A DNA stretch of 64,000 nucleotides from Phyllobacterium chamaecytisi. Lineage in GTDB: Bacteria; Pseudomonadota; Alphaproteobacteria; Rhizobiales; Rhizobiaceae. The stretch is taken from positions 1 to 64,000 of the forward strand of contig NZ_JAIQWW010000022.1 in assembly GCF_020164455.1 (NCBI RefSeq), given 5' to 3'. The translations under genes were made by a program, and so were the position numbers. Every line of letters begins with the position of its first letter. The stretch's first letter is position 1. This document shows positions 295-63,152 of the stretch, piece by piece. The notes beneath the pieces are model-generated. The model saw only the letters and a program-made list of their open reading frames with translations. It made no database searches and was not told the DNA's origin.

Positions 295-319
295 GGAACA
301 TTTGTGTTCGTTAAAAGTT
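295..319 (+). promoter_or_regulatory. EcfG-type stress promoter for the PfpI gene
   Basis: GGAAC at 295-299, 16 bases, AGTT at 316-319. The -10 element ends 77 bases before the chosen start at 397. Confidence 0.75.
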
Positions 320-396
320 TCCGACCTGTACAGCACGGCAGAGCTCAGCTCTCGATTGACCGTGCTGACAACATCCTGAACCGAAAGGAACAGCCC

Positions 397-957
397 ATGC
401 CTTCCATCAATGAAGCACGTATCCTTATTCTCGCAACCGATGGCTATGAGCGATCAGAGCTCCGGGTCCCCTACGACGAGTTGCGAAAGCGCGGTGCAGA
501 CGTCAAGATTGCATCCCCGAAAGCAGGTAGCATCAAGAGTTGGGACAAGAAAGATTGGGGCGATACCGTCGATGTGGACCTACTTGCCTCGGAAGCCTCG
601 GTTGACGACTTCGACGCGCTGGTGCTGCCAGGCGGACAGATCAACCCGGATCTTTTGAGACGGGACGACAGCGCCATGCGCATCGTGAAAGACTTCCTGA
701 ACAGCGGCAAGACGGTTGCTGCAATTTGTCATGCGCCATGGCTTCTTGTCGAAGCCGATGCCCTCCGCGGTCGCGATGCGACGTCATACTCGTCGATTAA
801 AACAGACGTTAAAAATGCCGGAGCGAATTGGAAGGACGAGGAAGTGGTGACTGACGAGGGTATTATCACCTCGCGCAGTCCGGACGATCTCCCGGCTTTT
901 GTTTCAAAGATCGTGGAAGAGATCGAAGAAGGGACGCACAAGCGCCGCGCAGCGTGA
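397..957 (+). CDS. DJ-1/PfpI family protein (type 1 glutamine amidotransferase-like, YhbO type)
   Basis: The 186-residue protein is full length for the PfpI/YhbO family, cytoplasmic stress proteins described as proteases or protein/nucleotide deglycases. The nucleophile elbow AICHAPW places the catalytic Cys at residue 111 and His at 112. The LVLPGG strand at about 75-80 and a Glu near residue 19-21 complete the usual site. The ATG at 397 is chosen because AAAGGAA lies just upstream; an in-frame upstream start at 304 would fall inside the promoter. An exact EcfG-type promoter precedes it. Deglycase versus protease activity cannot be decided from sequence. Confidence 0.9.
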   Translation: MPSINEARILILATDGYERSELRVPYDELRKRGADVKIASPKAGSIKSWDKKDWGDTVDVDLLASEASVDDFDALVLPGGQINPDLLRRDDSAMRIVKDFLNSGKTVAAICHAPWLLVEADALRGRDATSYSSIKTDVKNAGANWKDEEVVTDEGIITSRSPDDLPAFVSKIVEEIEEGTHKRRAA

Positions 958-1045
958 CGCGGCGATCACATCCAAGCTGCGGTGATCTCGGCACACCTAC
1001 TTCGGGTGCAGCAGTGAAGCGAAGGCCGCTCTCTGCTGATCAGTT

Positions 1046-1681
1046 CTACGCGCTGATCAATGGGACGAACATCACGGAGTCGAGGTCCTCCGCCTCAAAG
1101 GTGGTTTCGCTTGTGCGCGTTAGTTTGCGAAGCGTCTGGCTCCATTCGTCATGGCCGACTGGCATCACCAGGCGACCACCGATGGTTAACTGCTCCTTCA
1201 GCGCCGGGGGCACCATTGGCCCGCCGGCCGCGACCAGAATGACATCGAAGGGTGCGGCCTCGGGCCATCCCTTCGTGCCGTCACCAATACGCAGATCGAT
1301 ATTGTCGTAGCCGAGATCCCGCAATCGCTTACTCGCAGATTCGCCAAGCGTGCGATGGCGTTCGATGGCAAACACACGCTTGGCGATCTGGCTGGCCACC
1401 GCCGCGGCATAGCCAGATCCTGCCCCCACATCGAGGACCATTTCACCGGGCCTCAGCGCCGCGGCCTCGATCATTCGTGCAACGATGTAGGGCTGTGAGA
1501 TGGTCTGGCCCTCGCCTATGGATAAGGGGCTGTCTTCATAGGCAAGCTCTTCAAGTCGCGGATCGACAAAAGCTTCACGCGGCACACGGCGCATGGCGTG
1601 CAGAATATGAGGATCATTGATCCCGCGCCGGGCGATCTGGACATCGACCATTCGGTTCCGCGCACGGGAGAAATCACGCAT
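1046..1681 (-). CDS. pcm: Protein-L-isoaspartate O-methyltransferase
   Basis: This SAM-dependent enzyme methylates isoaspartyl residues in aged proteins to start their repair. The 211-residue product opens with MRDFSRARNRMVDVQI, typical of the family. It has the GEGQTISQPYIVARM motif (about 56-70) and the SAM motif VLDVGAGSGY (82-91). The frame is open upstream to 1873, but I choose the ATG at 1681 because an EcfG-type promoter (1717-1741) lies within that extension and GGAG precedes the ATG. It is divergent from the gene at 1866. Confidence 0.92.
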   Translation of the reverse strand: MRDFSRARNRMVDVQIARRGINDPHILHAMRRVPREAFVDPRLEELAYEDSPLSIGEGQTISQPYIVARMIEAAALRPGEMVLDVGAGSGYAAAVASQIAKRVFAIERHRTLGESASKRLRDLGYDNIDLRIGDGTKGWPEAAPFDVILVAAGGPMVPPALKEQLTIGGRLVMPVGHDEWSQTLRKLTRTSETTFEAEDLDSVMFVPLISA

Positions 1682-1716
1682 TCCAAGCACTCCGGTAGCG
1701 GTGCATCCAGTTTCCA

Positions 1717-5590: not shown

Positions 5591-5615
5591 GGAACAAATT
5601 CTTCTTCTCAGGGTT
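5591..5615 (+). promoter_or_regulatory. EcfG-type stress promoter for the glsB-cyclase operon
   Basis: GGAAC at 5591-5595, 16 bases, GGTT at 5612-5615, 35 bases before the ATG at 5651. Confidence 0.8.
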
Positions 5616-5650: not shown

Positions 5651-5914
5651 ATGGAAAATGCCGAAATTGGTTGGATTGCCGCGATCATCATAGGTGGTCT
5701 TGCAGGCTGGTTTGCTGAGATGTTTATGAAAAGCAATACAGGCGTGATCATGAACATCATTTTGGGAATTGTCGGCGCCATCATAGCCAATGCGTTGCTA
5801 TCGTTTTTTGGCGTTACCCTGACGGGGTGGTTGGGCTATTTGGTCGCCGGATTCATCGGCGCGTGTATTCTCATCGCTGTGGGCCGGATGTTTCGAGGAA
5901 CCAGGGCCGTATGA
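5651..5914 (+). CDS. GlsB/YeaQ/YmgE family stress-response membrane protein
   Basis: An 87-residue inner-membrane protein with three hydrophobic segments. It carries the family glycine pattern IIIGGLAGWFAE, NIILGIVGAIIAN and GWLGYLVAGFIGA. Members of this transglycosylase-associated family are induced by acid and general stress. GGAGAA precedes ATG 5651. The stop overlaps a small downstream frame by ATGA, and the genes to 7317 follow without a gap, so it is the first gene of an operon. A decayed copy lies at 47409-47620. Confidence 0.92.
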   Translation: MENAEIGWIAAIIIGGLAGWFAEMFMKSNTGVIMNIILGIVGAIIANALLSFFGVTLTGWLGYLVAGFIGACILIAVGRMFRGTRAV

Positions 5915-7522: not shown

Positions 7523-8193
7523 TTAGGCCCCCCACCTTTTAGCGATCGCCAGTGAAATACCGACGAGACACATGGTGAGCGGCACCCACCAAACGGGATC
7601 CCTTATGGTGAAAAGCGTGACGCTGCTGCTAACGAGCCAGAGCGTCGGGATAATGAACAACAGGAAGTCGTAGCGGTGCTCGGTTGATGCCAGAAACCCG
7701 ATCGTCGCGATCGCGGTCGGATCGGGCATTATGCCGAAGACTTCCGCAGTTCCCAATCCCGACCTGCAATCAACGACAGGCCGGGATAGATCAGGACAGC
7801 CACTGCCATTACGATCAGCCCTGCGAAACCGCCCGCCAATGACGCTCCCGTTCTGCGCGGGATAACCTGAACGGCGAGCAAAAGGATCGCCTGAGCCACA
7901 AAGCCACAAGCGGCGTATGTGGCTGCCCAGTTGATGCTTGACAGACGCGACCAGAGATAGGCCCAACCGACTAGCAGCCAAAGCGCAGCCAGAACCGTCG
8001 CAACGATCCTACTCGCATTCGGCCGAGCACGCGCGAGCAAGCAAACGAGGCCTACACCCACCAGTAACATCAGAATCTGAAGTGGCCAAAGGGCGAGGTT
8101 ATAGCTCTCGATCTGCCTGAAAAATACCCGAGGCGAAAACATAAAAAACTCGGAAGGCAATATGACCACCACTCCGTCACAAGGCATCCTCAT
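7523..8193 (-). pseudogene. DUF6064 membrane protein, frameshifted
   Basis: The first part (8193 to about 7740) encodes SEFFMFSPRVFFRQIESYN and several membrane helices. It ends at GRDWELR. The rest, in another frame, continues VFGIMPDPTAIATIGFL to the end at 7523, which is the conserved C-terminal motif of DUF6064. One added G in the run at about 7741-7748 would join them. The start of the protein is not well defined. Either a recent mutation or a sequencing error is possible. Function of DUF6064 is unknown. Confidence 0.75.
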
Positions 8194-11763: not shown

Positions 11764-12230
11764 CTACTTGTTGATCGAGGTAACCGCCAAGTTTGTAAGC
11801 TTGTTGTTGGCCGCCTTTTCCTGGTCGAGGATTTCACTCAGCAGTACGTGAGCTGGTTCATTTCCGAGAACCTTTGCCCATTCGCGCAGAGAGCCATAAC
11901 GGGCTATTTCATAATGTTCGACGGCTTGGCAGGCGGCTAGTGCACCAGCTTCCAAGGCAACACCTTGCGCTTCGGCAAGAATACCCACCGCCTCTTTTAA
12001 AATACCATCCGTAGCATCGCATTTCTCGCCTGCAGGTTTGACGCCGATAGTCTTGAAAACCTTTTCCAAGGTTTTGATCTGGCCTTTAGTTTCTGCAAGG
12101 TGCTCCAGGCTCATTTTCAACGCTGCATTTTTTACCGCGCTCGATACTTTTGGAAGGGCCTTTGCGATAGCATCTCGGCATAATAAACATCTTTTAGAGT
12201 GTGCTCGAACAGCTCAGCGAGTGTCTTCAT
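11764..12230 (-). pseudogene. DUF892 ferritin-like protein, frameshifted
   Basis: ATG 12230 starts MKTLAELFEHTLKDVYYAE, the family N-terminus. The next codons run into a stop. In the other frame AIAKALPKVSSAVKNAALKM continues into the intact C-terminal part (to 11764) with HYEIARYGSLREWA. One extra base near 12170-12176 would restore a protein of about 155 residues. Intact relatives lie at 20242 and, also frameshifted, at 42137. An exact EcfG-type promoter is retained. Confidence 0.8.
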
Positions 12231-12264: not shown

Positions 12265-12289
12265 AACTCGCAGTTACATTTATCGTTCC
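12265..12289 (-). promoter_or_regulatory. EcfG-type stress promoter for the DUF892 gene at 12230
   Basis: Minus strand GGAAC (12289-12285), 16 bases, AGTT (12268-12265), 35 bases from the ATG. The sequence from here to 12594 holds nothing else recognised. Confidence 0.75.
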
Positions 12290-15328: not shown

Positions 15329-15928
15329 TTACGCCATCGGACGGTAGTCGCGGGCTCGCTCACGCTCCCGCACCAGTTCTTCTTCGGTGAAGTCAGCGCT
15401 GTTTTCATCAAAGCCCTGCCAACCTTCCTCTCGATACATGGCGCGTCGTGTATTCAGGTCAACGGGAGCATTTTCATCGATGACCGAACGGGCAATATCA
15501 ACCTGATCATCCTCGACGCGCGCCGAAACCAACGTGCTGCCTCTTCGGACACCTTCTGCATAAACGTGAGCGTCGTTTTCATCGACGCCTGCACTCGTCA
15601 TTGAGCCGATTATTCCGCCTGCAGCACCACCAGCAACAGCGCCTGCAACCGCACCCGTTGCGGTAGCGACAAGCCAGCCCGCGGCGACGACTGGTCCGAC
15701 GCCCGGGATTGCCAGCATGCCAAGGCCCGCCAGGAGCCCGCCTGCGCCGCCCATGACGGCACCGACGCCAGCCCCGGTTGCTGCACCCTCGCCTGCGTTG
15801 GATTCATCCGTTTTGCCACTGCGGCTGACGATGCTGATATTGGACGAGGAAATCCCTGCATCCTCAAGCGCGTTGACAGCGGTTTTGGCATCTTCGTGAT
15901 TGTCATATAGTCCTGTTACGGTTTGCAT
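15329..15928 (-). CDS. General stress protein (YflT-like, glycine-rich membrane type)
   Basis: A 199-residue protein. The N-terminal TVTGLYDNHEDAKTAVNALE (about 3-22) is the YflT-type stress fold. A long Gly/Ala-rich hydrophobic hairpin follows (about 48-108), then a second repeat (HVYAEGVRRGSTLVSARVED, about 120-140) and a charged tail. GGAGGA precedes the ATG. It lies 31 bases after a PepSY gene and is probably co-transcribed from the promoter at 16322. Close paralogue at 52455. Biochemical function is unknown. Confidence 0.88.
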   Translation of the reverse strand: MQTVTGLYDNHEDAKTAVNALEDAGISSSNISIVSRSGKTDESNAGEGAATGAGVGAVMGGAGGLLAGLGMLAIPGVGPVVAAGWLVATATGAVAGAVAGGAAGGIIGSMTSAGVDENDAHVYAEGVRRGSTLVSARVEDDQVDIARSVIDENAPVDLNTRRAMYREEGWQGFDENSADFTEEELVRERERARDYRPMA

Positions 15929-15959: not shown

Positions 15960-16280
15960 TTATTTGGCGGCTTCGACAACGTTGCCTTGGAAATCGAGTT
16001 TTACCTCGACCGATTTGCCGTCTTTCATCGCGGTGCCCGTCCAGACGCCATCTTCACCCTTGGTCAAAGGACCGACGTCGGCGTAACCCTTGGCTTCGAT
16101 GCGTTCCCTTGCCTGGCCCTCGGTGAAACTGTTGGCCCCTTCAACTGGGGCTGCCGGATTTTTTGTATCTGGAGTCGCGACGGCAGGCGTTTGGGTATCA
16201 GTTGCAGGTTTTGTTGCCTCTTGGGCGTGGGCCGCGGAGAGGATAGAGAGAGCGCCGAGCGCGAGAGCTATACGTTTCAT
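15960..16280 (-). CDS. Periplasmic PepSY-like domain protein
   Basis: A 106-residue protein with a signal peptide ending at AHAQ (about residue 20), a Thr/Pro-rich linker and a PepSY-like domain (SFTEGQARERIEAKGYADVG to VKLDFQGNVVEA). Such domains occur as inhibitory or sensory modules in the envelope. AAGGAGG precedes the ATG. First gene of a stress-promoter operon with 15329. Confidence 0.82.
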   Translation of the reverse strand: MKRIALALGALSILSAAHAQEATKPATDTQTPAVATPDTKNPAAPVEGANSFTEGQARERIEAKGYADVGPLTKGEDGVWTGTAMKDGKSVEVKLDFQGNVVEAAK

Positions 16281-16321: not shown

Positions 16322-16346
16322 AACCCGCCGTTGCTCCCAATGTTCC
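16322..16346 (-). promoter_or_regulatory. EcfG-type stress promoter for the PepSY-stress protein operon
   Basis: Minus strand GGAAC (16346-16342), 16 bases, GGTT (16325-16322), 42 bases from the ATG at 16280. Confidence 0.8.
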
Positions 16347-16472: not shown

Positions 16473-16497
16473 GGAACTATCCACACATTTCCTCGTT
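16473..16497 (+). promoter_or_regulatory. EcfG-type stress promoter for the zinc metallopeptidase
   Basis: GGAAC 16473-16477, 16 bases, CGTT 16494-16497, 49 bases before ATG 16547. Confidence 0.75.
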
Positions 16498-16546: not shown

Positions 16547-17641
16547 ATGCGCCTCTTCACCTGCGACAACTGCAAGAACGTTGTCTTTTTCGATAATCGC
16601 CAATGCGTCCAGTGCAAATCCAGGCTGGCCTATGAACCTGTTACTATGACAATGCGCGCGATCAGTTCCCAGGCTGCAGGTTCGTGGCGATTTTTGAGAG
16701 GTGAAGGATTGGATGCATGCATGTGCGCAAACGCATCTTTTGAGGTTTGCAATTGGCTGGTCGATCCCTCGGAGAACCGAGATTTCTGCCTGTCCTGCCG
16801 TCATAATCGTCTTGTGCCATCCGTTAAAACATCAGAGGGCCTAAACCATTGGCGCAAAATTAGTCGGGCGCAGCAGCACCTCTTCTATTCCATTTTGCGC
16901 TGGAACCTTCCGCATCCCGATCGCACCGAGGATCCAACGGGCGGACTGGTGTTCGATTTCCTTGAAGATCAACGTCTTCCCAGTGGAGTGATTGTACCCG
17001 CAATGAGTGGCCACGACGAAGGTCTCATCACCATTCGTGCCGCCGAGGCCGATGACGCGACGCGCGAAGAGGCGAGGCAATCGGTCCATGAACTGTACCG
17101 GACGCTGCTTGGTCACCTTCGTCACGAAAGCGGTCATTTTATATGGAACAAACTTGTTCGCGACGGCAATGACCTGGAGAACTACCGCTCAGTGTTTGGC
17201 GATGAGCGGGCAGATTATGAACGAGCTCTCCAGCACTATTATGCCAATGGTCCCCTCCTGGGATGGCAGGAAAGCTTCGTCTCGGCTTACGCAAGCTCCC
17301 ATCCGTGGGAGGACTTTGCCGAGTGCTTTGCACACTATATTCATATCGTTGACAGCCTTGAGACCGCACGTGAATTTGGCGTCGCAGCAAAACCGCCAGA
17401 GCATCTGGCAATGGCAGCATCAATCGATTTCGATCCTTATCAAGCGGATAGCGCCGAACAGCTTGTGAGCACCTGGGTCCCACTTAGTATCGCAATCAAT
17501 TCTATACAGCGCAGCATGGGTCAATCCGATTCGTATCCATTCGTCTTGTCCTCGCCCGTTATCGTGAAACTCGAATACCTGCATCGCCTTGTTCAGAAGT
17601 TCGGGAAGCAACAAGTCATTCGCGGAGCATATGATTGCTGA
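16547..17641 (+). CDS. Zinc-ribbon metallopeptidase family protein
   Basis: A 364-residue protein of the bacterial putative zinc-binding metallopeptidase family. An N-terminal zinc ribbon has paired Cys (CDNC at 6-9, CVQC at 20-23) and a second set near 58-84. The active-site HESGH occupies 193-197, and a Glu/His pair in PWEDFAECFAHYIH is a likely third ligand. Length is normal for the family. No signal peptide, so cytoplasmic. Substrate unknown. Preceded by an exact stress promoter. Confidence 0.88.
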   Translation: MRLFTCDNCKNVVFFDNRQCVQCKSRLAYEPVTMTMRAISSQAAGSWRFLRGEGLDACMCANASFEVCNWLVDPSENRDFCLSCRHNRLVPSVKTSEGLNHWRKISRAQQHLFYSILRWNLPHPDRTEDPTGGLVFDFLEDQRLPSGVIVPAMSGHDEGLITIRAAEADDATREEARQSVHELYRTLLGHLRHESGHFIWNKLVRDGNDLENYRSVFGDERADYERALQHYYANGPLLGWQESFVSAYASSHPWEDFAECFAHYIHIVDSLETAREFGVAAKPPEHLAMAASIDFDPYQADSAEQLVSTWVPLSIAINSIQRSMGQSDSYPFVLSSPVIVKLEYLHRLVQKFGKQQVIRGAYDC

Positions 17642-18799: not shown

Positions 18800-19387
18800 C
18801 TAATGCCGTCGATGTGAGGCGTGGTGCCACCCCGAGTGTTGGGGCGCTTCGAGAATTTCCTCACGGGACTTCTCACCCAACATTTCCAAGAGATGGGTCT
18901 TAGCCCGGTTTATTCTGCTTTTGATAGTTCCAATGGGGCAATCGCAAATTTCCGCGGCTTCGTCGTAGCTAGCACCCATGACACAAACCAGCATGATTGC
19001 TTGCCGGAAATCCGGGTCGAGTTGATGCAATGCTGTCTCAAGTTCATGACCCCGAATAGTCCATTCCTGGGATGGTGGCCGGGAGGGTCCGTTTTCAGCG
19101 ATATCTTTTTCCCCGCCTGTGACCTCCCTCAGTTGGTGCTTTATCGCTGTATTGAACGTATTTCTCATGATGGTGAACAACCATGACTTCATGCTCGTGC
19201 CCGGAGTAAACTGGTGCAATGATCCGAGCGCGCGTTTGAGTGTTTCTTGGACAAGATCGTCTGCGTCATCGGGTTGCCGATAGAATGACCTCGCAAATGC
19301 CCTTAACGCTGGCACAAGAGTAACGAGTTCCGCTCTGCAGTTAACTTCTAACTGGTAATCTTGATAAACGGGATCGATTGCAACCAT
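18800..19387 (-). CDS. ECF sigma factor, EcfG-like
   Basis: A 195-residue sigma-70 family factor. Region 2 spans about 26-95 (LRAFARSFYRQPDDADDLVQ) and region 4 about 115-165 (ASYDEAAEICDCPIGTIKSR). The IGTIKSRINRAK ending is characteristic of EcfG-type general stress factors. No NepR or PhyR neighbours are present, so it may be an accessory paralogue of the main EcfG. ATG 19387 is preceded by AGAGGACA, which is locked in a perfect hairpin. It probably drives at least part of the promoters in this window. Confidence 0.88.
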   Translation of the reverse strand: MVAIDPVYQDYQLEVNCRAELVTLVPALRAFARSFYRQPDDADDLVQETLKRALGSLHQFTPGTSMKSWLFTIMRNTFNTAIKHQLREVTGGEKDIAENGPSRPPSQEWTIRGHELETALHQLDPDFRQAIMLVCVMGASYDEAAEICDCPIGTIKSRINRAKTHLLEMLGEKSREEILEAPQHSGWHHASHRRH

Positions 19388-19505
19388 ATCTTGTCCTCTC
19401 TGGATAAGAGGACAATGCGTCGAAGAGATAACTCGTTCCTCCGTCGCCTGAACTGTACGCTACCGAACATTTCAGCTTTTTTGGGTCGTGGAAACCAAAG
19501 TGTTT
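19385..19505 (-). promoter_or_regulatory. Sigma-factor leader with ribosome-site hairpin
   Basis: In the sense direction UGUCCUCU (19414-19407) pairs perfectly with AGAGGACA (19399-19392), 7-base loop. The 3' arm contains the Shine-Dalgarno bases four bases from the AUG, so folding should hide it. A weak stress promoter lies upstream: GGAAC (19439-19435), 17 bases, CATT. The whole leader has a copy at 13685. Confidence 0.6.
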
Positions 19506-19653: not shown

Positions 19654-19791
19654 TCAGCGACTCTTGCTGCCCTCGCTGCCTTTCGACTGCTTGTCGGATG
19701 AGTTGCTCGATGAGCCGCTCTTATCCCGCCTGTCGGTTGAGCTTTTCGAACCACCCTTGGTGCTTGATTTGCGATCCTGACTATTTGGCAT
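19654..19791 (-). CDS. Small Ser/Lys-rich hydrophilic protein
   Basis: A 45-residue, wholly disordered peptide rich in Ser, Lys, Gly and Asp (starts MPNSQDRKSSTKGGSKSS, ends SKSR). GGAGGAAAGAA lies directly before the ATG and an exact EcfG-type promoter 43 bases upstream; a perfect hairpin follows. Composition resembles desiccation-protectant small proteins, but that is inference. Confidence 0.75.
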   Translation of the reverse strand: MPNSQDRKSSTKGGSKSSTDRRDKSGSSSNSSDKQSKGSEGSKSR

Positions 19792-19833: not shown

Positions 19834-19858
19834 AACCCAGCATGAGGAAAACTGTTCC
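19834..19858 (-). promoter_or_regulatory. EcfG-type stress promoter for the small Ser/Lys-rich gene
   Basis: Minus strand GGAAC (19858-19854), 16 bases, GGTT (19837-19834), 43 bases from ATG 19791. Confidence 0.8.
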
Positions 19859-20739: not shown

Positions 20740-20789
20740 GCTTTTGTCCTCCGGTTGTTATCGCTGCCCAATGTGGCGGGTGAGCAAGG

Positions 20790-20814
20790 AACCACGCCAG
20801 ACGACGATTGTTCC
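20790..20814 (-). promoter_or_regulatory. EcfG-type stress promoter for DUF892
   Basis: Minus strand GGAAC (20814-20810), 16 bases, GGTT (20793-20790), 51 bases from ATG 20739. Confidence 0.8.
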
Positions 20815-21751: not shown

Positions 21752-21794
21752 AGTCTTTCCTTCCAAGAACGACTTACAGGTCGTGACCTGCAAG

Positions 21795-42671: not shown

Positions 42672-42696
42672 AACGCAGGAAATGAGCGAGCGTTCC
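42672..42696 (-). promoter_or_regulatory. EcfG-type stress promoter for the third DUF892 gene
   Basis: Minus strand GGAAC (42696-42692), 16 bases, CGTT (42675-42672), 42 bases from ATG 42630. Confidence 0.78.
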
Positions 42697-42810
42697 CGAG
42701 GTCCTTCTGTGTCCACCCGTGGACGCTTCTGTTGACAGATCGGACCCCCTGGCAGGCGAACCACGCCATTTTCTCTTCGTTCCGCCCATCGCATTATTTC
42801 GGTCGGGCGA

Positions 42811-44158: not shown

Positions 44159-44183
44159 AACTCCGGCGAAGCCGCAGTGTTCC
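44159..44183 (-). promoter_or_regulatory. EcfG-type stress promoter for the NRAMP gene
   Basis: Minus strand GGAAC (44183-44179), 16 bases, AGTT (44162-44159). Confidence 0.78.
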
Positions 44184-48243: not shown

Positions 48244-48268
48244 GGAACAATCTCTTGCTATGAAAGTT
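48244..48268 (+). promoter_or_regulatory. EcfG-type stress promoter for DUF3606
   Basis: GGAAC 48244-48248, 16 bases, AGTT 48265-48268, 111 bases before ATG 48380. Confidence 0.7.
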
Positions 48269-48379: not shown

Positions 48380-48583
48380 ATGGCTGATGATAAGACAAAA
48401 CGTACGACCGACCGGGAGACAGTCGCCGCTGGCGAGAAGTATGAAGTCCAATATCTTATGAAGTCCCTGCATCTGCGGCGCGACGATGCCGATCAACTGA
48501 TCGCGAAGTACAATGGCGACAGGGAAAAAATAAAGGCAGAGCTGTCGAAGCGAAAAACGCGTCAGACTTATGCGCACCTCTAG
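48380..48583 (+). CDS. DUF3606 protein
   Basis: A 67-residue protein. Core YEVQYLMKSLHLRRDDADQL and NGDREKIKAELSKR matches DUF3606 (Y-V-YW--F-V--D-L---V---G). Function unknown; the family is common among small stress genes of proteobacteria. GGAGGA precedes the ATG. Confidence 0.82.
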   Translation: MADDKTKRTTDRETVAAGEKYEVQYLMKSLHLRRDDADQLIAKYNGDREKIKAELSKRKTRQTYAHL

Positions 48584-48912: not shown

Positions 48913-50214
48913 TCATGAGACGGTGCTTACAGGCAGGGCGCGTTTGTGTTGCGTGGCTTTATAGGCCCGAACAATGATGTCCCTGGCATTCTCCACGATC
49001 AGCTTCCCTTCCAGGAAGTCATCGATCTGGTCGTAGGTGACCCCATACGCATCTTCATCGGGACGCTGTGGCACGAGAGACTCAAGGTCGGCTGTCGGGA
49101 CCTTGGTAACCAGGTGATCCGGAGCGCCCAGCGTTGCAGCCATGGCGCGAATGCGCCGTTTGATCAATCCGGACAGCGGCAGGATGTCGGCCGCTCCGTC
49201 GCCATGCTTGGTGAAGAAGCCCATGACTGCCTCTGCCGCATGATCCGTGCCGATGACGAGGCCGTGGTGAGCCCCAGCAATTGCGTACTGGGCGATCATG
49301 CGTTCCCTGGCCTTTATGTTGCCGAGTACGAAATCCTCATGGGCCTCGTCGCGGAACGCGAGATCCCCCCGCTTCAGTGCCATCATCATCGCGTCGACGG
49401 CCGGCTTGATGTTGATCGTAAGAACACGGTCCGGTGAAATGGCCGTCAGGGCCATCGATGCCGCATCTTCATCTGCCTGCACGCCGTAGGGCAGACGCAC
49501 TGCAATGAACTGGGCGTCGTATCCGTTTTCGCGCAGTTGCTCCACGGCACTTTGGGCAAGCATGCCTGCAAGGAGAGAATCGACGCCTCCGCTGATACCA
49601 AGAACATAGGTCATTGATCCGGACGATCGCAAATATTCGGCCAGAAAATCAATTCGGTCCTGGGTCTGCGAAACCGGATCGAAGTCTTGGCTCACTCCGA
49701 GTGATCGAATGATTTCTTGTTGCCCGGTGCTGATGTTGACTGTCTCCCTTCCTTTCGATCGTTCTCCGCAAGTCTTTCGGGTGTTGGGATTGCCAAATTC
49801 GGCGTCTCGGATACGTGTATATTCATCAAACCGCGGGAGATTGTCAGAAAATTCGACCCAGGAAAGTTTCTCTCGCCAATAGCCGTGAGCCGCCGGCTTG
49901 AACCGCTCGGGGTTATCGAAGAAGCCGATCGTCAGATATATCTCGTCCTTGATACCCTCATCGAAATATCCGATTGACGATCCGCAGTTCCCGCAAAACG
50001 TCCGGGTAATGCCAGATGTCCTCGAGAACCTCTTCATCTCACCCTTGGTTATGCGGAATTGCTGCGGTCTATATCCTACCCAAACAGTAAGCGGGCCGCC
50101 GATCGCTTGCCTGCAATCGGCATCATGATCGTAATTGATCCAGAACGGTTCGCCTTCGCATTCCGCTTGTACGCTGCCGCAAAAACAGCTGGCTGTCTCT
50201 AGCCGGTCAACCAT
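48913..50214 (-). CDS. nadE: GFA domain fused to ammonia-dependent NAD+ synthetase
   Basis: A 433-residue protein. Residues 1 to about 150 are a GFA/CENP-V-type domain with zinc Cys residues (CFCG 10-13; FCGNCGSS about 73-80). Residues about 161-433 are a complete NadE: PP-loop SGGVDS (208-213), GTDHAAEA, FFTKHGDGAAD and HKRALPV. NadE makes NAD+ from deamido-NAD+, ATP and ammonia. A purine-rich Shine-Dalgarno-like run (49745-49755) lies at the junction but no ATG, GTG or TTG follows it. ATG 50214 has GGAGGAA upstream. Confidence 0.88.
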   Translation of the reverse strand: MVDRLETASCFCGSVQAECEGEPFWINYDHDADCRQAIGGPLTVWVGYRPQQFRITKGEMKRFSRTSGITRTFCGNCGSSIGYFDEGIKDEIYLTIGFFDNPERFKPAAHGYWREKLSWVEFSDNLPRFDEYTRIRDAEFGNPNTRKTCGERSKGRETVNISTGQQEIIRSLGVSQDFDPVSQTQDRIDFLAEYLRSSGSMTYVLGISGGVDSLLAGMLAQSAVEQLRENGYDAQFIAVRLPYGVQADEDAASMALTAISPDRVLTINIKPAVDAMMMALKRGDLAFRDEAHEDFVLGNIKARERMIAQYAIAGAHHGLVIGTDHAAEAVMGFFTKHGDGAADILPLSGLIKRRIRAMAATLGAPDHLVTKVPTADLESLVPQRPDEDAYGVTYDQIDDFLEGKLIVENARDIIVRAYKATQHKRALPVSTVS

Positions 50215-50236: not shown

Positions 50237-50261
50237 AACAGAGATGGCGGGACTTTGTTCC
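50237..50261 (-). promoter_or_regulatory. EcfG-type stress promoter for GFA-NadE (TGTT variant)
   Basis: Minus strand GGAAC (50261-50257), 16 bases, TGTT (50240-50237), 23 bases from ATG 50214. Confidence 0.6.
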
Positions 50262-52454: not shown

Positions 52455-53057
52455 CTATGGCATCATCTGAGTGGTCTGACGCAAACGATCGCGTTCTTTG
52501 AGCACATCTTCTTCTGTGTAATCGGGCAGGGATCCATCGAACCTCTCCCACCCGGCTTCACGATACGAGGCGCGGCGTGTGTCAAGGTCGACCGGCGCGT
52601 TGGCCTTAAGGATGGCCTGAGCACCTTCGGCCTCACTGTCGTCAACTCGTGCCGAAACCAGTGTGCTTCCGCGGCGAACGCCCTCCGCATAAACGTGCGC
52701 GTCTTTTTCGTCTACGCCTTCATTTGTCAAAGACCCTATAATGCCGCCTGCAGCGCCACCGGCGGCTGCGCCAGCTACCGCACCTGCCGCGGTGGCGGCG
52801 AGCCAACCTGCGGCCACCACGGGACCGATGCCCGGTATGGCGAGCATCCCAAGTCCGGCAAGAAGCCCTCCGGTGCCCCCCACCGCAGCACCGATTCCAG
52901 CACCGGTCGCAGCACCCTCCCCGGCGTTGTCGTCGCGCTCGTCGCCGTCGCGACCGACAATACTAATGCGGTCTGAAGCAATGCCGGCATCTTCGAGTGC
53001 GCGAACCACGGCTCGGGCATCGGCATGATTGTCGTACAGTCCTGTGATTGTTTGCAT
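52455..53057 (-). CDS. General stress protein (YflT-like), paralogue of 15329
   Basis: A 200-residue protein. TITGLYDNHADARAVVRALE, the Gly/Ala-rich hydrophobic hairpin (about 48-108), HVYAEGVRRGSTLVSARVDD and the tail RASYREAGWERFDG follow the 15329 protein along its whole length. GGGAG precedes the ATG; an exact stress promoter lies 46 bases upstream. Function unknown. Confidence 0.9.
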   Translation of the reverse strand: MQTITGLYDNHADARAVVRALEDAGIASDRISIVGRDGDERDDNAGEGAATGAGIGAAVGGTGGLLAGLGMLAIPGIGPVVAAGWLAATAAGAVAGAAAGGAAGGIIGSLTNEGVDEKDAHVYAEGVRRGSTLVSARVDDSEAEGAQAILKANAPVDLDTRRASYREAGWERFDGSLPDYTEEDVLKERDRLRQTTQMMP

Positions 53058-53102: not shown

Positions 53103-53127
53103 AACCGTTGGATCAGGTGAAGGTTCC
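53103..53127 (-). promoter_or_regulatory. EcfG-type stress promoter for 52455
   Basis: Minus strand GGAAC (53127-53123), 16 bases, GGTT (53106-53103). Confidence 0.8.
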
Positions 53128-53511: not shown

Positions 53512-54552
53512 CTAGACAAGTTGTTCAACGGTGCATTGATCTGGCCGCTTGTCGGGTCGCCAGCGCATAAGTTTGGTGCCATGGCGAAAGCGGTCGCCTG
53601 TGATATGGTCGAACCGCACCTCGACGACGAGCTCCGGACGCAGCGGCTCCCACTCACTACTTCGTTTGCTCCAGCGGCTGATGCCACCAGGCGACGTCCC
53701 GGTAAAGCCGGGCGGCTCACGCAGTAGCTCCAGCCGCTTGGTTAAAGCCCCGCGTTCGTCGTCCTGAATCGTGGAGGTGAAGCCGACATGATTGAGTTTT
53801 CCAACTCTGTCATAAAGGCCAAGAAGCAGAGACCCGACCTCGCGAGATTGGCTTTCATAGCGAAAGCCTCCGACAACACAGTCGGCGGTGCGTAGCCGCT
53901 TCACCTTGACCATGACCCGCTGACCCGCCTCGTAGGTTCCCTCAAGCCGTTTCGCTATGACACCGTCGGAGCCCCCATGGCCAGCTTCGGACAACCATTT
54001 CAAGGCTTGCTTCACCTGTCTTGTTGTCGGGGAAAGGACAATATTTTCAAGCGACGCGTCCTCTTCAACCCGACCAAAAAGCTGTTCCAGCAGCTTCCGG
54101 CGTTGAGACAGGGGTTGATCCAAAACAGACTTGCCGTCTTCAGAAGCCAGCAAGTCAAACAGGACGAGCTTGGCAGGGGTTTCGTGCGCCAGTTTTCGTA
54201 TCCGGCTCTCGGCAGGATGAAGTCGCAACTGCAAAGCGTCAAACGCAGGCTGACCGTCAATCTCAACGACAAGCTCACCATCGACGACAAATCTTTCAGA
54301 TGGCCAATTTCGTAGACAGGTGATCATCTCAGGAAAATAACGCCCCAGGGGCTTGCCGGATTTAGCTCTGAGATCGATCTGGCTGCCTTCCTTGAAAACC
54401 AGGCAGCGAAAGCCGTCCCATTTGGGTTCGTATTGCCAGTTGACACCTTCAGGCAACTCTTGGGCGGAACGCGCTTCGATGGGCGGCGTATCGAGGGGTA
54501 ACGCGAAGAGGCAAGCTTTCCCGCTTCCGGATGTCTTTGGGCTCTTCCCCAT
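53512..54552 (-). CDS. ATP-dependent DNA ligase (LigD ligase-domain type)
   Basis: A 346-residue stand-alone ligase. Nucleotidyl-transfer motif YEPKWDGFR with adenylated Lys44; VVDGELVV, VLFDLLA, DGVIAKR and MVKVKRLRTAD are motifs III-V. The C-terminal OB-fold ends VVEVRFDHITGDRFRHG. It lacks the polymerase and nuclease modules of full LigD, and no Ku gene is in the window. It follows the flavodoxin-fold gene by 33 bases and is probably in its stress-promoter operon. Confidence 0.92.
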   Translation of the reverse strand: MGKSPKTSGSGKACLFALPLDTPPIEARSAQELPEGVNWQYEPKWDGFRCLVFKEGSQIDLRAKSGKPLGRYFPEMITCLRNWPSERFVVDGELVVEIDGQPAFDALQLRLHPAESRIRKLAHETPAKLVLFDLLASEDGKSVLDQPLSQRRKLLEQLFGRVEEDASLENIVLSPTTRQVKQALKWLSEAGHGGSDGVIAKRLEGTYEAGQRVMVKVKRLRTADCVVGGFRYESQSREVGSLLLGLYDRVGKLNHVGFTSTIQDDERGALTKRLELLREPPGFTGTSPGGISRWSKRSSEWEPLRPELVVEVRFDHITGDRFRHGTKLMRWRPDKRPDQCTVEQLV

Positions 54553-54585: not shown

Positions 54586-55188
54586 CTATTCACCCGGATA
54601 AGGTTGGTTCTTTAACAGGTCAGCAAGATGAGCGGTGTTGCGCGCCAGCATGGCAATCGCATCAGCGACTTGTTTCGGAACCTCTTTCAAGTCAATAAAA
54701 TCGGTACTGCCCATCGCCTCGCCCACCCAATAGGCAACGGCATTGGGGGCAATGGAAAACCCGACATCGTTCAACGCCTGATACAACTCTGCTGAGACAT
54801 GGTGCGCTCCATCTTCATTACCGACGACTGCAATCGCCGCAACCTTCCCATAAGACGGCATCCTTCCCTTATCATCCGTTTCTTCCAAGAAGGCGTCCAT
54901 CCGCTCAAGTGCCCGTTTGCAAACACTTGACGGCTGTCCCAACCAGATGGGAGTGCCAAGGATCAGAATATCCGCATCGATGATCTGTTGTCTCAAGTCG
55001 GGCCAATCATCGCCGTCACCTTCATCGGACGTTACACCGGGTTTGATGTTCACTTCAGCCAACCGGACGCTCGACGTGTTGATATCGAGTGCCTTGAAAG
55101 CTTCAATGACCAGATCAAGCATCCGTTGGGTAGAAGATTCGCCACTTGCCTTCAGCGTACAATTTATCGCTAGAACATTCAGGGGCAT
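54586..55188 (-). CDS. Flavodoxin-fold NAD(P)H-dependent oxidoreductase
   Basis: A 200-residue FMN-binding reductase. NVLAINCTLKASGESSTQRM (about 3-22) is the phosphate loop, and LILGTPIWLGQPSSVCKRAL the FMN-binding 80s loop region. Likely reduces quinones or disposes of electrophiles. ATG 55188 has TAGGAAC upstream; the longer frame from 55392 passes through the promoter. First gene of the unit with the ligase. Confidence 0.86.
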   Translation of the reverse strand: MPLNVLAINCTLKASGESSTQRMLDLVIEAFKALDINTSSVRLAEVNIKPGVTSDEGDGDDWPDLRQQIIDADILILGTPIWLGQPSSVCKRALERMDAFLEETDDKGRMPSYGKVAAIAVVGNEDGAHHVSAELYQALNDVGFSIAPNAVAYWVGEAMGSTDFIDLKEVPKQVADAIAMLARNTAHLADLLKNQPYPGE

Positions 55189-55234
55189 GTCGTTCCTAAT
55201 GAGCGTTGCGTGTTCGTCGGACTTAGGACCAAGG

Positions 55235-55259
55235 AACTGTTGCGCTCGGGAAAAGTTCC
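55235..55259 (-). promoter_or_regulatory. EcfG-type stress promoter for the reductase-ligase unit
   Basis: Minus strand GGAAC (55259-55255), 16 bases, AGTT (55238-55235), 47 bases from ATG 55188. Confidence 0.8.
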
Positions 55260-56870: not shown

Positions 56871-56895
56871 GGAACCAATCCTGTCCTTGCAAGTT
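56871..56895 (+). promoter_or_regulatory. EcfG-type stress promoter for the cytochrome-DUF4142 operon
   Basis: GGAAC 56871-56875, 16 bases, AGTT 56892-56895, 34 bases before ATG 56930. Confidence 0.8.
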
Positions 56896-56929: not shown

Positions 56930-58327
56930 ATGTCACCCTTAAAATTGGTTGCTCTTGCCTGTGTTGTGAGTGCGAGTGCGGCAAGCCTTGCTGCATATTC
57001 GGATCCCCTCCCCCCGGATTTGACCTACCGTCCGCTACCGACGCAGCCCCTTTCGAGCGTCAGGGCCAATGACGAGGCGCAGAAACCCAAAGTCATGAAA
57101 CGCCAGCAAAACCTTCTCAACAAACGATATGACCTCGCGGATAAACCTATTCCCGACGCCCGCATGTCCGGGGGCCAGAAAAAAGTGCAGGACGGTGTAA
57201 GGGTCAGGCTGCCTGACGGGGTCACCTGGGATACCTTGGCAAGTATGAGCCCAACCGAGATCCGCGACAAGAACCTTCTTCCCGAGGGCTTCAGACCCCT
57301 GCCGCATGTGAAGCAAGCCACGGGGGGACAGGTTTTCCCGCAAAAGGCAATAGACGAGATCGGCAAACAGGAGAACCGCGACCTCAAACGCTTTGATGTC
57401 GATTTTGATCTTCCCGATCACTTGACGCCGGAATTTCCCCCTCCGATTTTCCTGACCACGCATCCCGAACTGGGTGACGTGTCGCGCGGAGAACTTCTGA
57501 CGATCAAAAATTTCTACGAATATATGAATGGCATCATTACGCCGGTCCAGATGGAGGGGCTCAGGCTTCTCCTGACGCCATTTCCCCAAGAGGAGTTCAA
57601 CCAGACAGAAGATCGCAAGGTCGCGCAGCAGAGCATGGGCGTTGCCTGCCTCGACTGTCACGCCAATTTTCACACCAACGGAGCCTTTCACCTCACGCCG
57701 GATGTCCGGCCGCAAGCCGCACGTTTCCGCCTCGACAGCACCAGTCTGCGCGGCATGTTCAACCAACAAATCCATGGTTCAAAACGCTCGCTGCGTTCAA
57801 TCGAGGATTTCACCGAATTCGAACAGCGCACGGCTTATTTTAATGGCGACCATGTCAGCGCCACCCGCAAAGGGGTGAACTTGCCCGACAGACCCAACCA
57901 AGTTGCCATGATGGCGCAAATGCAGAACATCATCGATTTTCCGCCGGCACCGAAGCTCGACCCGATGGGCAAACTCGACCCGGCGAAAGCGAGCGAGCAG
58001 GAATTGGCGGGCGAGCGTGTCTTCATGGGCAAAGGCCGCTGCGGCGAATGCCACCTGCCGCAAACCTCATTCCTTGACAACAACATGCATGATCTCAAGC
58101 TCGAACGTTTTTACAACATCGGTTACACCGCCAATGATCAGGTCGCCATTGCGGACGGTCCGATCAAGACGTTTACCTTGCGTGGTATCAAGGATTCGCC
58201 GCCCTATCTGCACGACGGGCGCCTGCTCACCTTGGCCGACACAGTGGAATATTTCAATCTTGTCCTCGGTGTGAAGCTGACGAAGGAGGAGAAGGATTCA
58301 CTGGTGGCCTACATGCTGACGCTTTGA
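56930..58327 (+). CDS. Exported di-haem cytochrome c protein
   Basis: A 465-residue periplasmic protein. Signal peptide about 1-22. Two CxxCH haem sites: CLDCH (240-244) and CGECH (371-375). The C-terminal half (GERVFMGKGRCGECHLP; FTLRGIKDSPPYLHDGRLLT) resembles the MauG/cytochrome c peroxidase superfamily; annotation of relatives as cytochrome B6 is common but misleading. GGAG precedes ATG 56930. Likely a peroxidase-like or electron-transfer protein for oxidative stress. Confidence 0.88.
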   Translation: MSPLKLVALACVVSASAASLAAYSDPLPPDLTYRPLPTQPLSSVRANDEAQKPKVMKRQQNLLNKRYDLADKPIPDARMSGGQKKVQDGVRVRLPDGVTWDTLASMSPTEIRDKNLLPEGFRPLPHVKQATGGQVFPQKAIDEIGKQENRDLKRFDVDFDLPDHLTPEFPPPIFLTTHPELGDVSRGELLTIKNFYEYMNGIITPVQMEGLRLLLTPFPQEEFNQTEDRKVAQQSMGVACLDCHANFHTNGAFHLTPDVRPQAARFRLDSTSLRGMFNQQIHGSKRSLRSIEDFTEFEQRTAYFNGDHVSATRKGVNLPDRPNQVAMMAQMQNIIDFPPAPKLDPMGKLDPAKASEQELAGERVFMGKGRCGECHLPQTSFLDNNMHDLKLERFYNIGYTANDQVAIADGPIKTFTLRGIKDSPPYLHDGRLLTLADTVEYFNLVLGVKLTKEEKDSLVAYMLTL

Positions 58328-58355: not shown

Positions 58356-58958
58356 ATGCGCAATTTTCTGACCATTATTCTCATGACAATCACTACCGCG
58401 CCGGCGGCCGCGCAGATAGGCAATCCCGCGGGGTTTGCACCGGACACACGGATGCAGGAACCGGGCGTACCCGCAGATCATCAAACGAACAATCAGGATC
58501 GGCTTTTTGCCCAGCTCGCGGCGGCGGGTGGACTGGCCGAAGTTGATCTTGCAAAGCTTGCCGCAACAAAGGCGGCCGATGCCAGGGTCAAGGAATTTGC
58601 ACAGGCTTTGGTTGATGATCATTCCGATGCCAACAGCAGACTGAAGGCGTTGGCGGATGCGGCCAAGATACCATTGCCGGACACGTTGGACGCCGATCAT
58701 AAGGCAGTACGACAGAAGCTGGACGCGGCCGAGGGACAAGCATTTGACGTTGCATACATCCGTTCGCAGATCATCGCTCATCAAAAAACCGCGCAATTAC
58801 TGGCATGGGAGATCGGGTCCGGCGAGGACGCGCAATTGCAACGATATTCGGCGGCAACCTTGCCCGCAGTGATGAAACATCTACGGATGGCACAGGACAT
58901 CGCCTCCGCGCTTACAGGGCAAGCGTCCCGCGAAATCGTTGCTGCAAAACATAATTGA
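58356..58958 (+). CDS. DUF4142 periplasmic protein
   Basis: A 200-residue exported protein. Signal peptide about 1-19 (ending AAAQ). DUF4142 helices: LFAQLAAAGGLAEVDLAKLA, FAQALVDDHSDAN, FDVAYIRSQIIAHQKTAQLL and VMKHLRMAQDI. AGGAGACAGG precedes the ATG, 28 bases after the cytochrome stop, so they form an operon. More diverged than the 38139 paralogue. Confidence 0.88.
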   Translation: MRNFLTIILMTITTAPAAAQIGNPAGFAPDTRMQEPGVPADHQTNNQDRLFAQLAAAGGLAEVDLAKLAATKAADARVKEFAQALVDDHSDANSRLKALADAAKIPLPDTLDADHKAVRQKLDAAEGQAFDVAYIRSQIIAHQKTAQLLAWEIGSGEDAQLQRYSAATLPAVMKHLRMAQDIASALTGQASREIVAAKHN

Positions 58959-60681: not shown

Positions 60682-60712
60682 GTGACAATCCCTCACGCAA
60701 AGGACGATGGGA

Positions 60713-63094
60713 CTATTCAGCGCTTGGGGAACAAGCCTTGGACACTTGCTCTGATCGGGACGCCAGTTTTTCACCGCTTGTGAAATTCTTCAAGCGGCGA
60801 TAGGTAGCCAAGGCTTGGCCGACAACCTGATCCATATTGTAGTATTTGTATGTGGCCAGACGCCCGACGAAAGTGACATTTGGGCTTGCCTTGGCAAGTT
60901 GCTCGTACCGCTTGAAAAGGGCCTGATTTTCCGGACGCGGGATCGGATAGTACGGGTCCCCCTCTGCGCAAGCAAACTCATAGCTCACGCTGGTTTTCGG
61001 GTGAACTTGTCCGGTGAGGTGTTTGTACTCTGTAATGCGGGTATACGGAATTTCTTCTGATGGATAGTTTATCACGCCCACAGGTTGGAAACGTCGCCTA
61101 TCGTGCGTTTCATGTTGAAACTGCAGGCTTCGATAGGGCAGCGCTCCATACCTATAACCGTAATATTCATCGATTGGCCCGGTGAAAATCGTATGAGCTG
61201 CCTCATATTCTTTGCGCACATCAGAAAACTCTGCTTCCAGCAGAATATCTATATTGTCAAGGTCAAGCATATTCTCAAACATTTGAGAATAGCCATGGAG
61301 GGGCATGGCCTGGATACTGTCCTGAAAATAACGGTCGTCGGTGTTTGTGCGTGTCGGAATCCGCGCGGTGACGGATTTATCGAGCTCTGAGGGGTCAAGA
61401 CCCCACTGCTTGCGTGTGTATCCCTCGAAAAAAGTACGATAAAGATCACGACCGACAGTGGCGACAACGGCATCTTTTGACGAAATGATCGCCGGTAGAT
61501 TTTCCGCGCGACTGGCCAGAAAAGCCGCAGCTTGCCCGTCATTTTCAAGATCGAGCTGATACAGTCCGTTGAGCGTGGTGCGGTTGATCGGGATCGGAAG
61601 CAGCATTCCCCCCACATCCGCAAGGACCCGATGTTCGTAAACCCGCCAAGCGGTGAATCTGGACAGATAGGAAAAAATTGCGTCGCTGTTGGTATGAAAG
61701 ATGTGCGGGCCGTATTTGTGGACAAGGATGCCACTGGCATCGTGAAAATCGTAAGCATTGCCCCCGACGTGGGGGCGACGATCGCACAATAGCACGCGTT
61801 TGCCACCATCAGAGGCCAGTCGCTCCGCCAACACTGAGCCGGCAAAGCCAGCGCCGACGATGAGATAGTCATACCTCTGGCCTGGGCGACTTTGCCGACG
61901 GATCGACGGACGGGAAAGATTTTGAACAGATTCCGCCCTGCGAACCATTGCAGCATCGAGATGGCTGTTCATGCGGTTGAAGGTTTCATCCCAGGTACAG
62001 GACGCAAGAATTTCATCAACTGGCACCAACCAAGAATCATCCGATTTTTTGAGTGAAAGCGCCCTCTCACAGAGCTCGATAAATTCCTGACTATCGTCGG
62101 CGATGAATACGCCTTTCACTCCGCCATAATGACGAACCACGTCCTTAACCGGCGTCGAGACGACGGGTCGCCCCGAGGCAAGGTACTCAGGCGTTTTTGT
62201 TGGACTTATAAAACGCGTCGCGTCGTTCAATGCAAAAGGCATAATCGCCACATCCCACCCGGCGAGATGGGCGGGAAGGTCCGCATAGGGGACCTGACCG
62301 ACGTAGCGAATATTGGGGGCACGCGGCAGATCACCTTGGGAGATTTTGACAACTGGCCCAATCAAGACAACAGTCCAGTTCGGTCGAGCGGCCGCCGTCG
62401 CCGCGATCAATGCCAAATCCAGGCGTTCGTCGATCACGCCACAATACCCCAACCTCGGACGATCTGTGGTTGTCGCGCCAGGAAGTTTGGAAGGTCCGTT
62501 GCGGGCAATGCGAAAGTGCTCAATGTCGACACCCGAAGGAAAGGGATGAATGTTATCGTGAAGCAGCCGCTTTGCTTCGAACAAACTGTATCCACCTGTG
62601 AATACGACATCCGCTCTTCTCATCAATTCGGCTTCCAATGCGTGCAGACGCGCCGGCGCGCCTAAAAAATTCGCCAGTTCGTCCATGCAGTCATAAATCA
62701 CCAGTTCGGCGTCGATCTTCCGTGCGAAATCGTACATCATCGGCGTGTAAAACCAGAAGGTTGGGTTTCGGCCCCCGCTCAAGTCAATCAACTGACGCAC
62801 CATTTCCTCCAACGCATCCCGGGTCCGGGTCGCTGAATATGTATGAGGAATGCGGGGGCGAATGCACTTGACGCGAGAACCCTTAAATGTGTGAAATTCG
62901 AAGTAGGGCGCATGGTGATCTGTGCCGATCATTTCTTCAAAGAAGAATACTGGTTGATGGACCGCAAACCGCTCCATGAGATGCTGGGGGCGCTGATAGA
63001 CAAAATCCCATCGAAGGTGGGAAAAACATATGAGCGGGCCGCGTTCGTTTGCGTTATTGTACTGAAATACAGTGGATTTTTCTCGGATGTTCAT
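60713..63094 (-). CDS. Glycosyltransferase fused to UDP-galactopyranose mutase
   Basis: A 793-residue two-domain protein. Residues about 18-390 are a GT-B glycosyltransferase (SHLRWDFVYQRPQHLMERF; PSGVDIEHF; YLASGRPVVSTP). Residues about 407-775 are a complete UDP-galactopyranose mutase: FAD motif IVGAGFAGS (412-420), HKYGPHIFHT, RKQWGLDP and TGPIDEYYGYRYG. The mutase makes UDP-galactofuranose; the fused transferase may use it. AGGAG precedes the ATG; stress promoter 34 bases upstream. Confidence 0.93.
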   Translation of the reverse strand: MNIREKSTVFQYNNANERGPLICFSHLRWDFVYQRPQHLMERFAVHQPVFFFEEMIGTDHHAPYFEFHTFKGSRVKCIRPRIPHTYSATRTRDALEEMVRQLIDLSGGRNPTFWFYTPMMYDFARKIDAELVIYDCMDELANFLGAPARLHALEAELMRRADVVFTGGYSLFEAKRLLHDNIHPFPSGVDIEHFRIARNGPSKLPGATTTDRPRLGYCGVIDERLDLALIAATAAARPNWTVVLIGPVVKISQGDLPRAPNIRYVGQVPYADLPAHLAGWDVAIMPFALNDATRFISPTKTPEYLASGRPVVSTPVKDVVRHYGGVKGVFIADDSQEFIELCERALSLKKSDDSWLVPVDEILASCTWDETFNRMNSHLDAAMVRRAESVQNLSRPSIRRQSRPGQRYDYLIVGAGFAGSVLAERLASDGGKRVLLCDRRPHVGGNAYDFHDASGILVHKYGPHIFHTNSDAIFSYLSRFTAWRVYEHRVLADVGGMLLPIPINRTTLNGLYQLDLENDGQAAAFLASRAENLPAIISSKDAVVATVGRDLYRTFFEGYTRKQWGLDPSELDKSVTARIPTRTNTDDRYFQDSIQAMPLHGYSQMFENMLDLDNIDILLEAEFSDVRKEYEAAHTIFTGPIDEYYGYRYGALPYRSLQFQHETHDRRRFQPVGVINYPSEEIPYTRITEYKHLTGQVHPKTSVSYEFACAEGDPYYPIPRPENQALFKRYEQLAKASPNVTFVGRLATYKYYNMDQVVGQALATYRRLKNFTSGEKLASRSEQVSKACSPSAE

Positions 63095-63127
63095 CAGGGC
63101 TCCTAATTGGTAGGTTTGACCTTGGCG

Positions 63128-63152
63128 AACCGATGGCTACCAACTAGGTTCC
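63128..63152 (-). promoter_or_regulatory. EcfG-type stress promoter for the fusion-glycosidase unit
   Basis: Minus strand GGAAC (63152-63148), 16 bases, GGTT (63131-63128). Confidence 0.78.

Follow-up and report, generated by a model that had tools for sequence, protein, structure and literature searches.

Introduction

The general stress response of the Alphaproteobacteria runs through PhyR, NepR, and EcfG, a sigma factor of group ECF15 whose published promoter motif is GGAAC-N16-CGTT (PMC3892343; PMC7083833). Two described sigma factors come closest to the subject of this study. EcfG2 of Rhizobium etli (PF00052, on plasmid p42f) is described as a plasmid-borne member of a non-canonical subgroup, with no anti-sigma or response-regulator gene nearby (PMC3892343), and is required for survival of oxidative stress (PMC3188799). 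RpoE5 of Sinorhizobium meliloti is a second ECF15 sigma factor carried on a secondary replicon, pSymB, and its promoter is printed as GGAAC-N16-CATT (PMC6180224). Here we analyze bases 1–64000 (the window) of contig NZ_JAIQWW010000022.1 of Phyllobacterium chamaecytisi, in which predicted EcfG-type promoters crowd around the gene for a sigma factor of the EcfG2 type.

The window shares with the known stress response the promoter motif and its spacing, stress genes, and HWE kinases, and the genome contains a core phyR-nepR-ecfG locus. What sets it apart is that about 25 promoters gather around a second sigma gene within 64 kb, whereas on pSymB of S. meliloti 25 sites of the strict pattern are spread over 1.68 Mb. 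We read the window as a general-stress-response island, with a probability of roughly 0.87. Some 25 genes or short operons, each with its own EcfG promoter, would be read by EcfG, and a second sigma factor would reinforce their expression.

Results

Both strands of the window were scanned with the pattern GGAAC-N16-NGTT, and 100 dinucleotide shuffles of the window served as the null. The window holds 32 matches, against a mean of 2.09 expected and a maximum of 7 in any shuffle. Because two palindromic places match on both strands, these matches represent 30 places. An earlier note on this DNA had listed 26 exact sites, with about two expected by chance. All 26 were recovered, one of them at 38968 and not 38969, and the note's tally of the variable -10 base (nine A, nine G, six C, two T) is right for those sites. 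Six matches had been overlooked (1960, 20788, 30554, 42759, 55233, and 55979). The first lies inside a called gene and is probably due to chance, whereas 20788 and 55233 are the opposite-strand faces of the palindromic sites 20790 and 55235. The fixed spacing that the note had claimed is equally plain, as every other spacer from N7 to N24 gives only one to five matches. When 12 forms of the -35 and 10 of the -10 were tried, the real ones included, no other comparable independent peak appeared in the window; peaks for TTT at N17 and GGT at N15 are register shifts. GAAAC-N16-NGTT is slightly in excess (six, versus zero to three at other spacers). The third base after GGAAC is T in 22 and A in 7 of 29 sites, a set from which 1960 and the two reverse palindrome faces were dropped.

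The enrichment is local. The genome (6,358,476 bases) contains 287 matches in total, fewer than the 417 of a reversed-pattern control, and the motif is therefore enriched locally and not globally. Per 10 kb, the window has 5.0 matches and the remaining genome 0.41, a difference of about 12-fold. Equal density throughout the genome, which the earlier note had named as telling against its claim, is thus not what is seen. A stricter form, GGAACNNT, occurs 91 times in the genome (control, 80), and 23 of these occurrences fall in the window, which is 1% of the genome. The note's description of a dense stress region stands, but the region runs past the window, with six further matches on the same contig (C15; 110,920 bases), and it is not alone. 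Contig C24 has 18 matches in 53.9 kb, and 20-kb clusters are found around the core phyR-nepR-ecfG genes (C45:16001-36000, L059; nine matches), at C5:88001-108000 (L005; eight), and at C3:100001-120000 (L004; six).

In Candidatus Phyllobacterium onerii, the sites corresponding to those of C24, C41, and C15 are consecutive on one contig. In P. zundukense, homologues lie at 324–374 kb and about 411–415 kb of one 990-kb plasmid, and the syntenic region, whose annotation is independent of ours, resembles the window in its genes and carries 20 sites within 49.5 kb. From these arrangements the island is probably part of a secondary replicon, of which C15 would be a fragment.

The sites are placed as promoters would be. 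Gene calls and several starts are our own, made with a periodic Markov model and supplemented by hand. Some 70% of the window is called coding, yet 31 of the 32 matches lie outside called genes and only one is mostly inside, whereas 22 of 33 matches at 12 control spacers fall within genes. Equal frequency inside genes, the second outcome that the note had named as speaking against it, is thus not what is seen. Of the 32 matches, 26 have a start codon no more than 160 bases downstream, and in 21 of these it lies 22–50 bases after GTT; the note gave 23–51 bases from NGTT. A similar distance, 16–50 bases, is reported for R. etli (PMC4167512). The genes served number 25, not 26, because the sites at 42672 and 42759 share one.

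Conservation follows the same eight bases. The sigma gene has its closest named relatives in P. onerii (97%), P. trifolii (95%), and P. bourgognense (90%). For 23 of the 32 matches, with palindromes scored once per strand, up to five relatives have an orthologous stretch. Of 53 such alignments, 48 retain the pattern exactly; in two of the other five, the alignment has a gap although the site itself is intact. With P. onerii, the closest relative, left out of the column identities, the eight fixed columns are 96.7% identical (294/304) and the spacers 83.0% (536/646). The 60 bases upstream of sites are 79.4% identical, and positions 45–84 from the first base of the site, which are partly coding, 88.4%. 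Outside the eight bases, the 29 sites share 26% identity on average and 43% at most. On this evidence we firmly assign the window sites to the EcfG (ECF15) type of promoter.

Two GGAAC-N17-GTTCC palindromes and an excess of CGAAC-N16-NGTT (11 in the window) had suggested bidirectional promoters or a second, CGAAC class of site. Six of the 11 are GGAAC matches read from the opposite strand, their -10 running on as GTTCG. We therefore treat the palindromes and the excess alike as a by-product of self-complementary boxes, and the idea was set aside. The same palindrome stands upstream of an ecfG-type gene at eight of the loci compared (loci carry L numbers here; L018, L022, L023, L027, L033, L035, L037, and L043), where it matches both strands; phyR is divergent in seven of the eight.

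The island sigma gene (18800–19387, minus strand) encodes 195 amino acids with matches to Sigma70_r2, Sigma70_r4_2, and PhyR_sigma2. The core system is encoded on contig C45, where Pfam identifies PhyR (PhyR_sigma2, PhyR_sigma-like, and receiver), NepR, and EcfG together; two HisKA_2/HWE kinases are encoded close by. The island sigma shares 45% identity with core EcfG. Their region-4 helices are nearly the same (GTIKSRVSRAR and GTIKSRINRAK), which favors recognition of a shared -35 by both proteins. A midpoint-rooted tree of 48 sigma sequences, from which L041–L045 were left out, splits into 23 and 25 rows with branch support of 100/100. The island sigma falls on the side that has seven Phyllobacterium sequences, 14 others borne on plasmids (R. 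etli p42f among them), and two from other contigs; the opposite side has core EcfG, 23 canonical rows, and L027. Judged by this grouping with plasmid-borne R. etli EcfG2, the island protein is a second, EcfG2-type sigma factor. RHE_RS26680 was taken as the R. etli EcfG2 gene PF00052 from homology and gene order. A tblastn search for PhyR found none in the window, in L011–L014, or in L046. The NepR profile matches one place in the whole genome, on C45. No NepR was found beside the island sigma, by a tblastn search that is weak here, matching at just 7 of the 25 loci that have PhyR.

A stretch of about 65 bases in front of the sigma gene (19400–19470, minus strand) is strikingly conserved among the six Phyllobacterium aligned, and this holds even for P. 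sophorae, in which the remainder has diverged. The block holds a GGAAC-N17-CATT element (19414–19439, minus strand) directly upstream of the gene. This is likely the sigma gene's own promoter, with a deviant -10, and would put the predicted start about 20 bases ahead of the ATG. The spacer is N16 in P. sophorae and strain A18/5-2. No second copy of the 19-base core that precedes GGAAC exists in the genome at up to two mismatches; one place matches with three. GGAAC-N16-CATT precedes the sigma homologues of four loci (L015, L016, L079, and L082) and is the form of the rpoE5 promoter of S. meliloti. GGAAC-N16-NGTT precedes those of six (L074, L076, L077, L078, L083, and L084), L075 has the NGTT form at -410 and an N17 form at -219, and five (L072, L080, L081, L085, and L086) have no GGAAC within 420 bases. 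The organism's own core nepR is preceded by GGAAC-N16-AATT. As far as these predicted promoters go, a deviant -10 before the sigma gene is recurrent but not general. A distinct CATT-type regulon finds no enrichment in the window, where GGAAC-N16-NATT occurs four times versus two to four at other spacers; over 174.9 kb of the organism's own islands it occurs 15 times versus three to eight, which lends the idea weak support.

Families of the genes behind the sites were assigned with Pfam. Many are stress families: DUF892, YflT (two), GlsB-type, PCMT, DJ-1, and DUF4142 (two, one of them the second gene of its row); several match no Pfam family. A KGG stress-repeat gene (24330–24722) within the island has no exact site nearby. 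Two PAS-HWE histidine kinases are encoded at 36308–37285 (minus strand) and 39955–40986 (plus strand). The earlier note's proposal of a stress island with its own sigma factor and sensor kinases is borne out by the stress genes, the sigma gene, and these two kinases, with the amendment that the sigma is a second one of the EcfG2 type and not core EcfG.

In the left part of the window, predicted EcfG-type promoters on the plus strand precede genes for a DJ-1/PfpI protein (site, 295–319; gene, 397–957), a Transgly_assoc (GlsB-type) membrane protein (5591–5615; 5651–5914), and a putative zinc-binding metallopeptidase (16473–16497; 16547–17641); the second of these sites is kept in P. onerii, P. 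bourgognense, and P. zundukense. Sites on the minus strand precede genes for a protein-L-isoaspartate methyltransferase, PCMT (1717–1741; 1046–1681), a DUF892 protein whose gene looks frame-broken (12265–12289; 11764–12230), and a small protein that is annotated PepSY in a relative, followed by a YflT-domain protein (16322–16346; 15960–16280 and 15329–15928). Upstream of the sigma gene, the site at 19834–19858 (minus strand) faces a 45-amino-acid Ser/Lys-rich open reading frame (ORF; 19655–19791) and is kept in four of the five relatives aligned. The first palindromic site, GGAAC-N17-GTTCC (20788–20814, both strands), directs its minus face at a DUF892 gene (20242–20739).

The site at 23740–23764 (minus strand) precedes a PAS-PAS-HisKA-HATPase-receiver hybrid kinase (21795–23696) and then a Crp-type regulator (21032–21751). 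This pair (21032–23696, minus strand) presumably resembles the hybrid FixL/FixK pairs. Further minus-strand sites stand before a protein of unknown function whose start is nearer 26665 (site, 26700–26724), a pyridoxamine-oxidase-like protein (30348–30372; gene, 29833–30318), and an unknown 118-amino-acid protein (32465–32489; 32077–32433). The site at 35528–35552 (minus strand), kept in P. bourgognense and P. zundukense, heads an operon-like row of 34909–35478 (no Pfam family), 34497–34916 (Holin-X family), and 33520–34500 (DUF3618). Unknown proteins of 128 and 111 amino acids (35781–36167 and 39021–39356) follow plus-strand sites at 35728–35752 and 38968–38992. On the minus strand, 38695–38719 precedes a DUF4142 gene (38139–38666); 39772–39796, kept in two relatives, has only a small ORF behind it (39500–39676).

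In the right part, two minus-strand sites (42672–42696 and 42759–42783) precede a DUF892 gene that lies in two separate ORFs (42400–42630 and 42137–42343). Minus-strand sites also precede a Nramp metal transporter (44159–44183; gene, 42811–44127), a fusion of GFA with NAD synthase (50237–50261; 48913–50214), a YflT-domain protein (53103–53127; 52455–53057), and a fusion of glycosyltransferase with UDP-galactopyranose mutase (63128–63152; 60713–63094). Plus-strand sites serve a DUF3606 gene (48244–48268; 48380–48583) and a pair consisting of 56930–58327, which has no Pfam family and is annotated cytochrome B6 in a relative, and DUF4142 (56871–56895; second gene, 58356–58958). The second palindromic site (55233–55259, both strands) directs its minus face at an FMN reductase (54586–55188) and then an ATP-dependent DNA ligase (53512–54552).

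Several of these genes are unusual in structure. The DUF892 genes at 11764–12230 and 42137–42630 (both minus strand) look split between frames, which may reflect decay or sequencing error; the 20242–20739 copy is intact. At 7523–8193 (minus strand), a DUF6064 profile is matched in two overlapping frames, likely another broken gene. Both fusions are single ORFs on the minus strand, one joining a GFA (formaldehyde-activating-like) domain to an NAD synthase domain (48913–50214), the other a glycosyltransferase to UDP-galactopyranose mutase (60713–63094).

We then compared other replicons. Plasmid loci were found by similarity to the island sigma; 14 EcfG2-homologue loci were chosen by us among the 40 listed of 700 records, and R. 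etli p42f was added, so the sample is not random. These 15 loci (590 kb) contain 162 N16 matches (148 places) versus 10–34 at each other spacer from N7 to N25, an enrichment of about tenfold around EcfG2-type genes (162 versus about 17 per other spacer). Such crowding is found in Phyllobacterium, several Rhizobium, Neorhizobium, and a Roseinatronobacter plasmid. The exceptions are R. leguminosarum 248 (one site in 40 kb), Rhizobium BG4 (four in 40 kb), and NZLR1 (four in 31 kb); in Mesorhizobium B2-1-8, the majority of the sites are over 10 kb away from the sigma gene. Whole replicons were counted for 6 of 16 plasmids, P. zundukense included. The fetched stretch accounts for 14 of 38 matches on p42f, 9 of 129 in A18/5-2, 18 of 119 in NXC24, 19 of 99 in CB3060, 21 of 76 in AB2/73, and 20 of 86 in P. 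zundukense, and in all six the stretch around the EcfG2-type gene is 2.9–13 times denser than the rest of the replicon. On p42f, the surroundings of EcfG2 resemble the island: they comprise two DUF892 genes, one gene each of the DUF4142 and Crp/Fnr types, a PAS-HisKA_2/HWE kinase, and 14 EcfG sites within 45 kb. Of the two regions, that of Phyllobacterium is the larger. Clustering around ecfG2 is not mentioned in the accessible text of PMC3892343 and PMC3188799, and a literature search, conducted largely without subscription papers, returned no description of EcfG promoters clustering around ecfG2.

A first comparison of 21 EcfG2-type with 23 canonical loci gave 128 versus 62 sites within 10 kb (p = 1.3e-4), using 23 of the 25 canonical loci with PhyR (L043 and L045 left out). 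Most of the canonical loci come from distant taxa. We therefore compared 11 Rhizobiaceae EcfG2 loci with six Rhizobiales canonical loci (Rhizobiaceae; L045 is titled only Rhizobiales) plus the organism's own core locus, and obtained p = 0.39, or 0.11 with seven Phyllobacterium loci added. Medians per 10 kb are 2.0 for canonical, 3.0 for Rhizobiaceae EcfG2, and 3.5 for Phyllobacterium loci; within 20 kb, there are 8 places at the organism's own core locus and 7 around the island sigma. Because the difference among near kin is not significant, crowding is not shown to be special to EcfG2, and that claim is withdrawn.

Discussion

The promoters, their enrichment and conservation, the gene content, and the identity of the sigma factor are read from the sequence itself. 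The order of signaling, the pairing of sigma factors with promoters, and the activity of the sites are modeled on the known EcfG pathway. Under stress, HWE-type kinases, of which the island encodes two, would phosphorylate PhyR, which would titrate NepR away from the core EcfG encoded on C45. EcfG-RNA polymerase would then transcribe the island, including the 45-amino-acid ORF just upstream of the second sigma gene. The same promoters would be driven more strongly or for longer by the second sigma, an EcfG2-type protein beside whose gene no NepR was found. We hold with moderate confidence that the island sigma reads the island promoters.

Several observations weigh against this reading. Six matches (1960, 20788, 30554, 55233, 55577, and 55979) have no gene behind them. 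The earlier note had all sites but 55577 pointing at a gene; 30554 and 55979 also lack an obvious one. Rfam at gathering scores gave no known RNA at the gene-less sites. Nine of the 32 matches are without an orthologue in the relatives' DNA compared. Only 1 of 19 EcfG2-dependent units of R. etli carries the EcfG1 motif (PMC3892343), and overexpression of RpoE5 in S. meliloti, in this respect different from what we propose for the island, gave one putative target (PMC6180224); for both reasons, the local sigma may not read these sites. Finally, promoter density is similar at EcfG2 loci and at canonical ecfG loci, both those of Rhizobiaceae and that of this genome, which speaks against a special role for EcfG2.

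The last three points also favor the most serious alternative, namely that the sites are ordinary targets of core EcfG, grouped since stress genes gather on the accessory replicon and near any ecfG, and that the island sigma has a different, narrow role. The sigma gene's own upstream element, GGAAC-N17-CATT and not NGTT, fits that account as well. It sits less easily with the greater density around the EcfG2-type gene on all six whole plasmids and with the near identity of the region-4 helices, and, according to a later study of R. etli, both sigmas recognize one motif (PMC4167512). We rate the chances of this alternative slightly below even. That a single promoter-bearing element was copied many times, as a repeat family and not a selected regulon, might be suggested by so many identical core motifs within a short region; it is highly improbable given how little the 29 sites resemble one another outside the eight bases and given their retention at orthologous places in other species. 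An artefact of chance or base composition, for which only the low genome-wide total relative to the reversed-pattern control could be cited, is negligible in light of the shuffles, the other spacers, and the conservation.

About 25 genes, many of unknown function, can now be listed with predicted stress promoters. That EcfG promoters crowd so closely about a plasmid-type EcfG2 gene, here and to a smaller extent on several related rhizobial plasmids, suggests that the additional sigma may act on an island of local targets inherited along with it. We put forward only tentatively, as a doubtful generalization, that the EcfG2 genes of rhizobial secondary replicons are centers of cohesive stress islands, in which the sigma would move and be inherited with its own promoters and targets and would supplement the chromosomal response with a replicon-borne second stage independent of NepR. 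Jans et al. regard the widespread extra EcfG copies as not satisfactorily explained (PMC3892343). If true, co-inherited islands would account for the frequency of non-canonical EcfG copies and for their location on plasmids.

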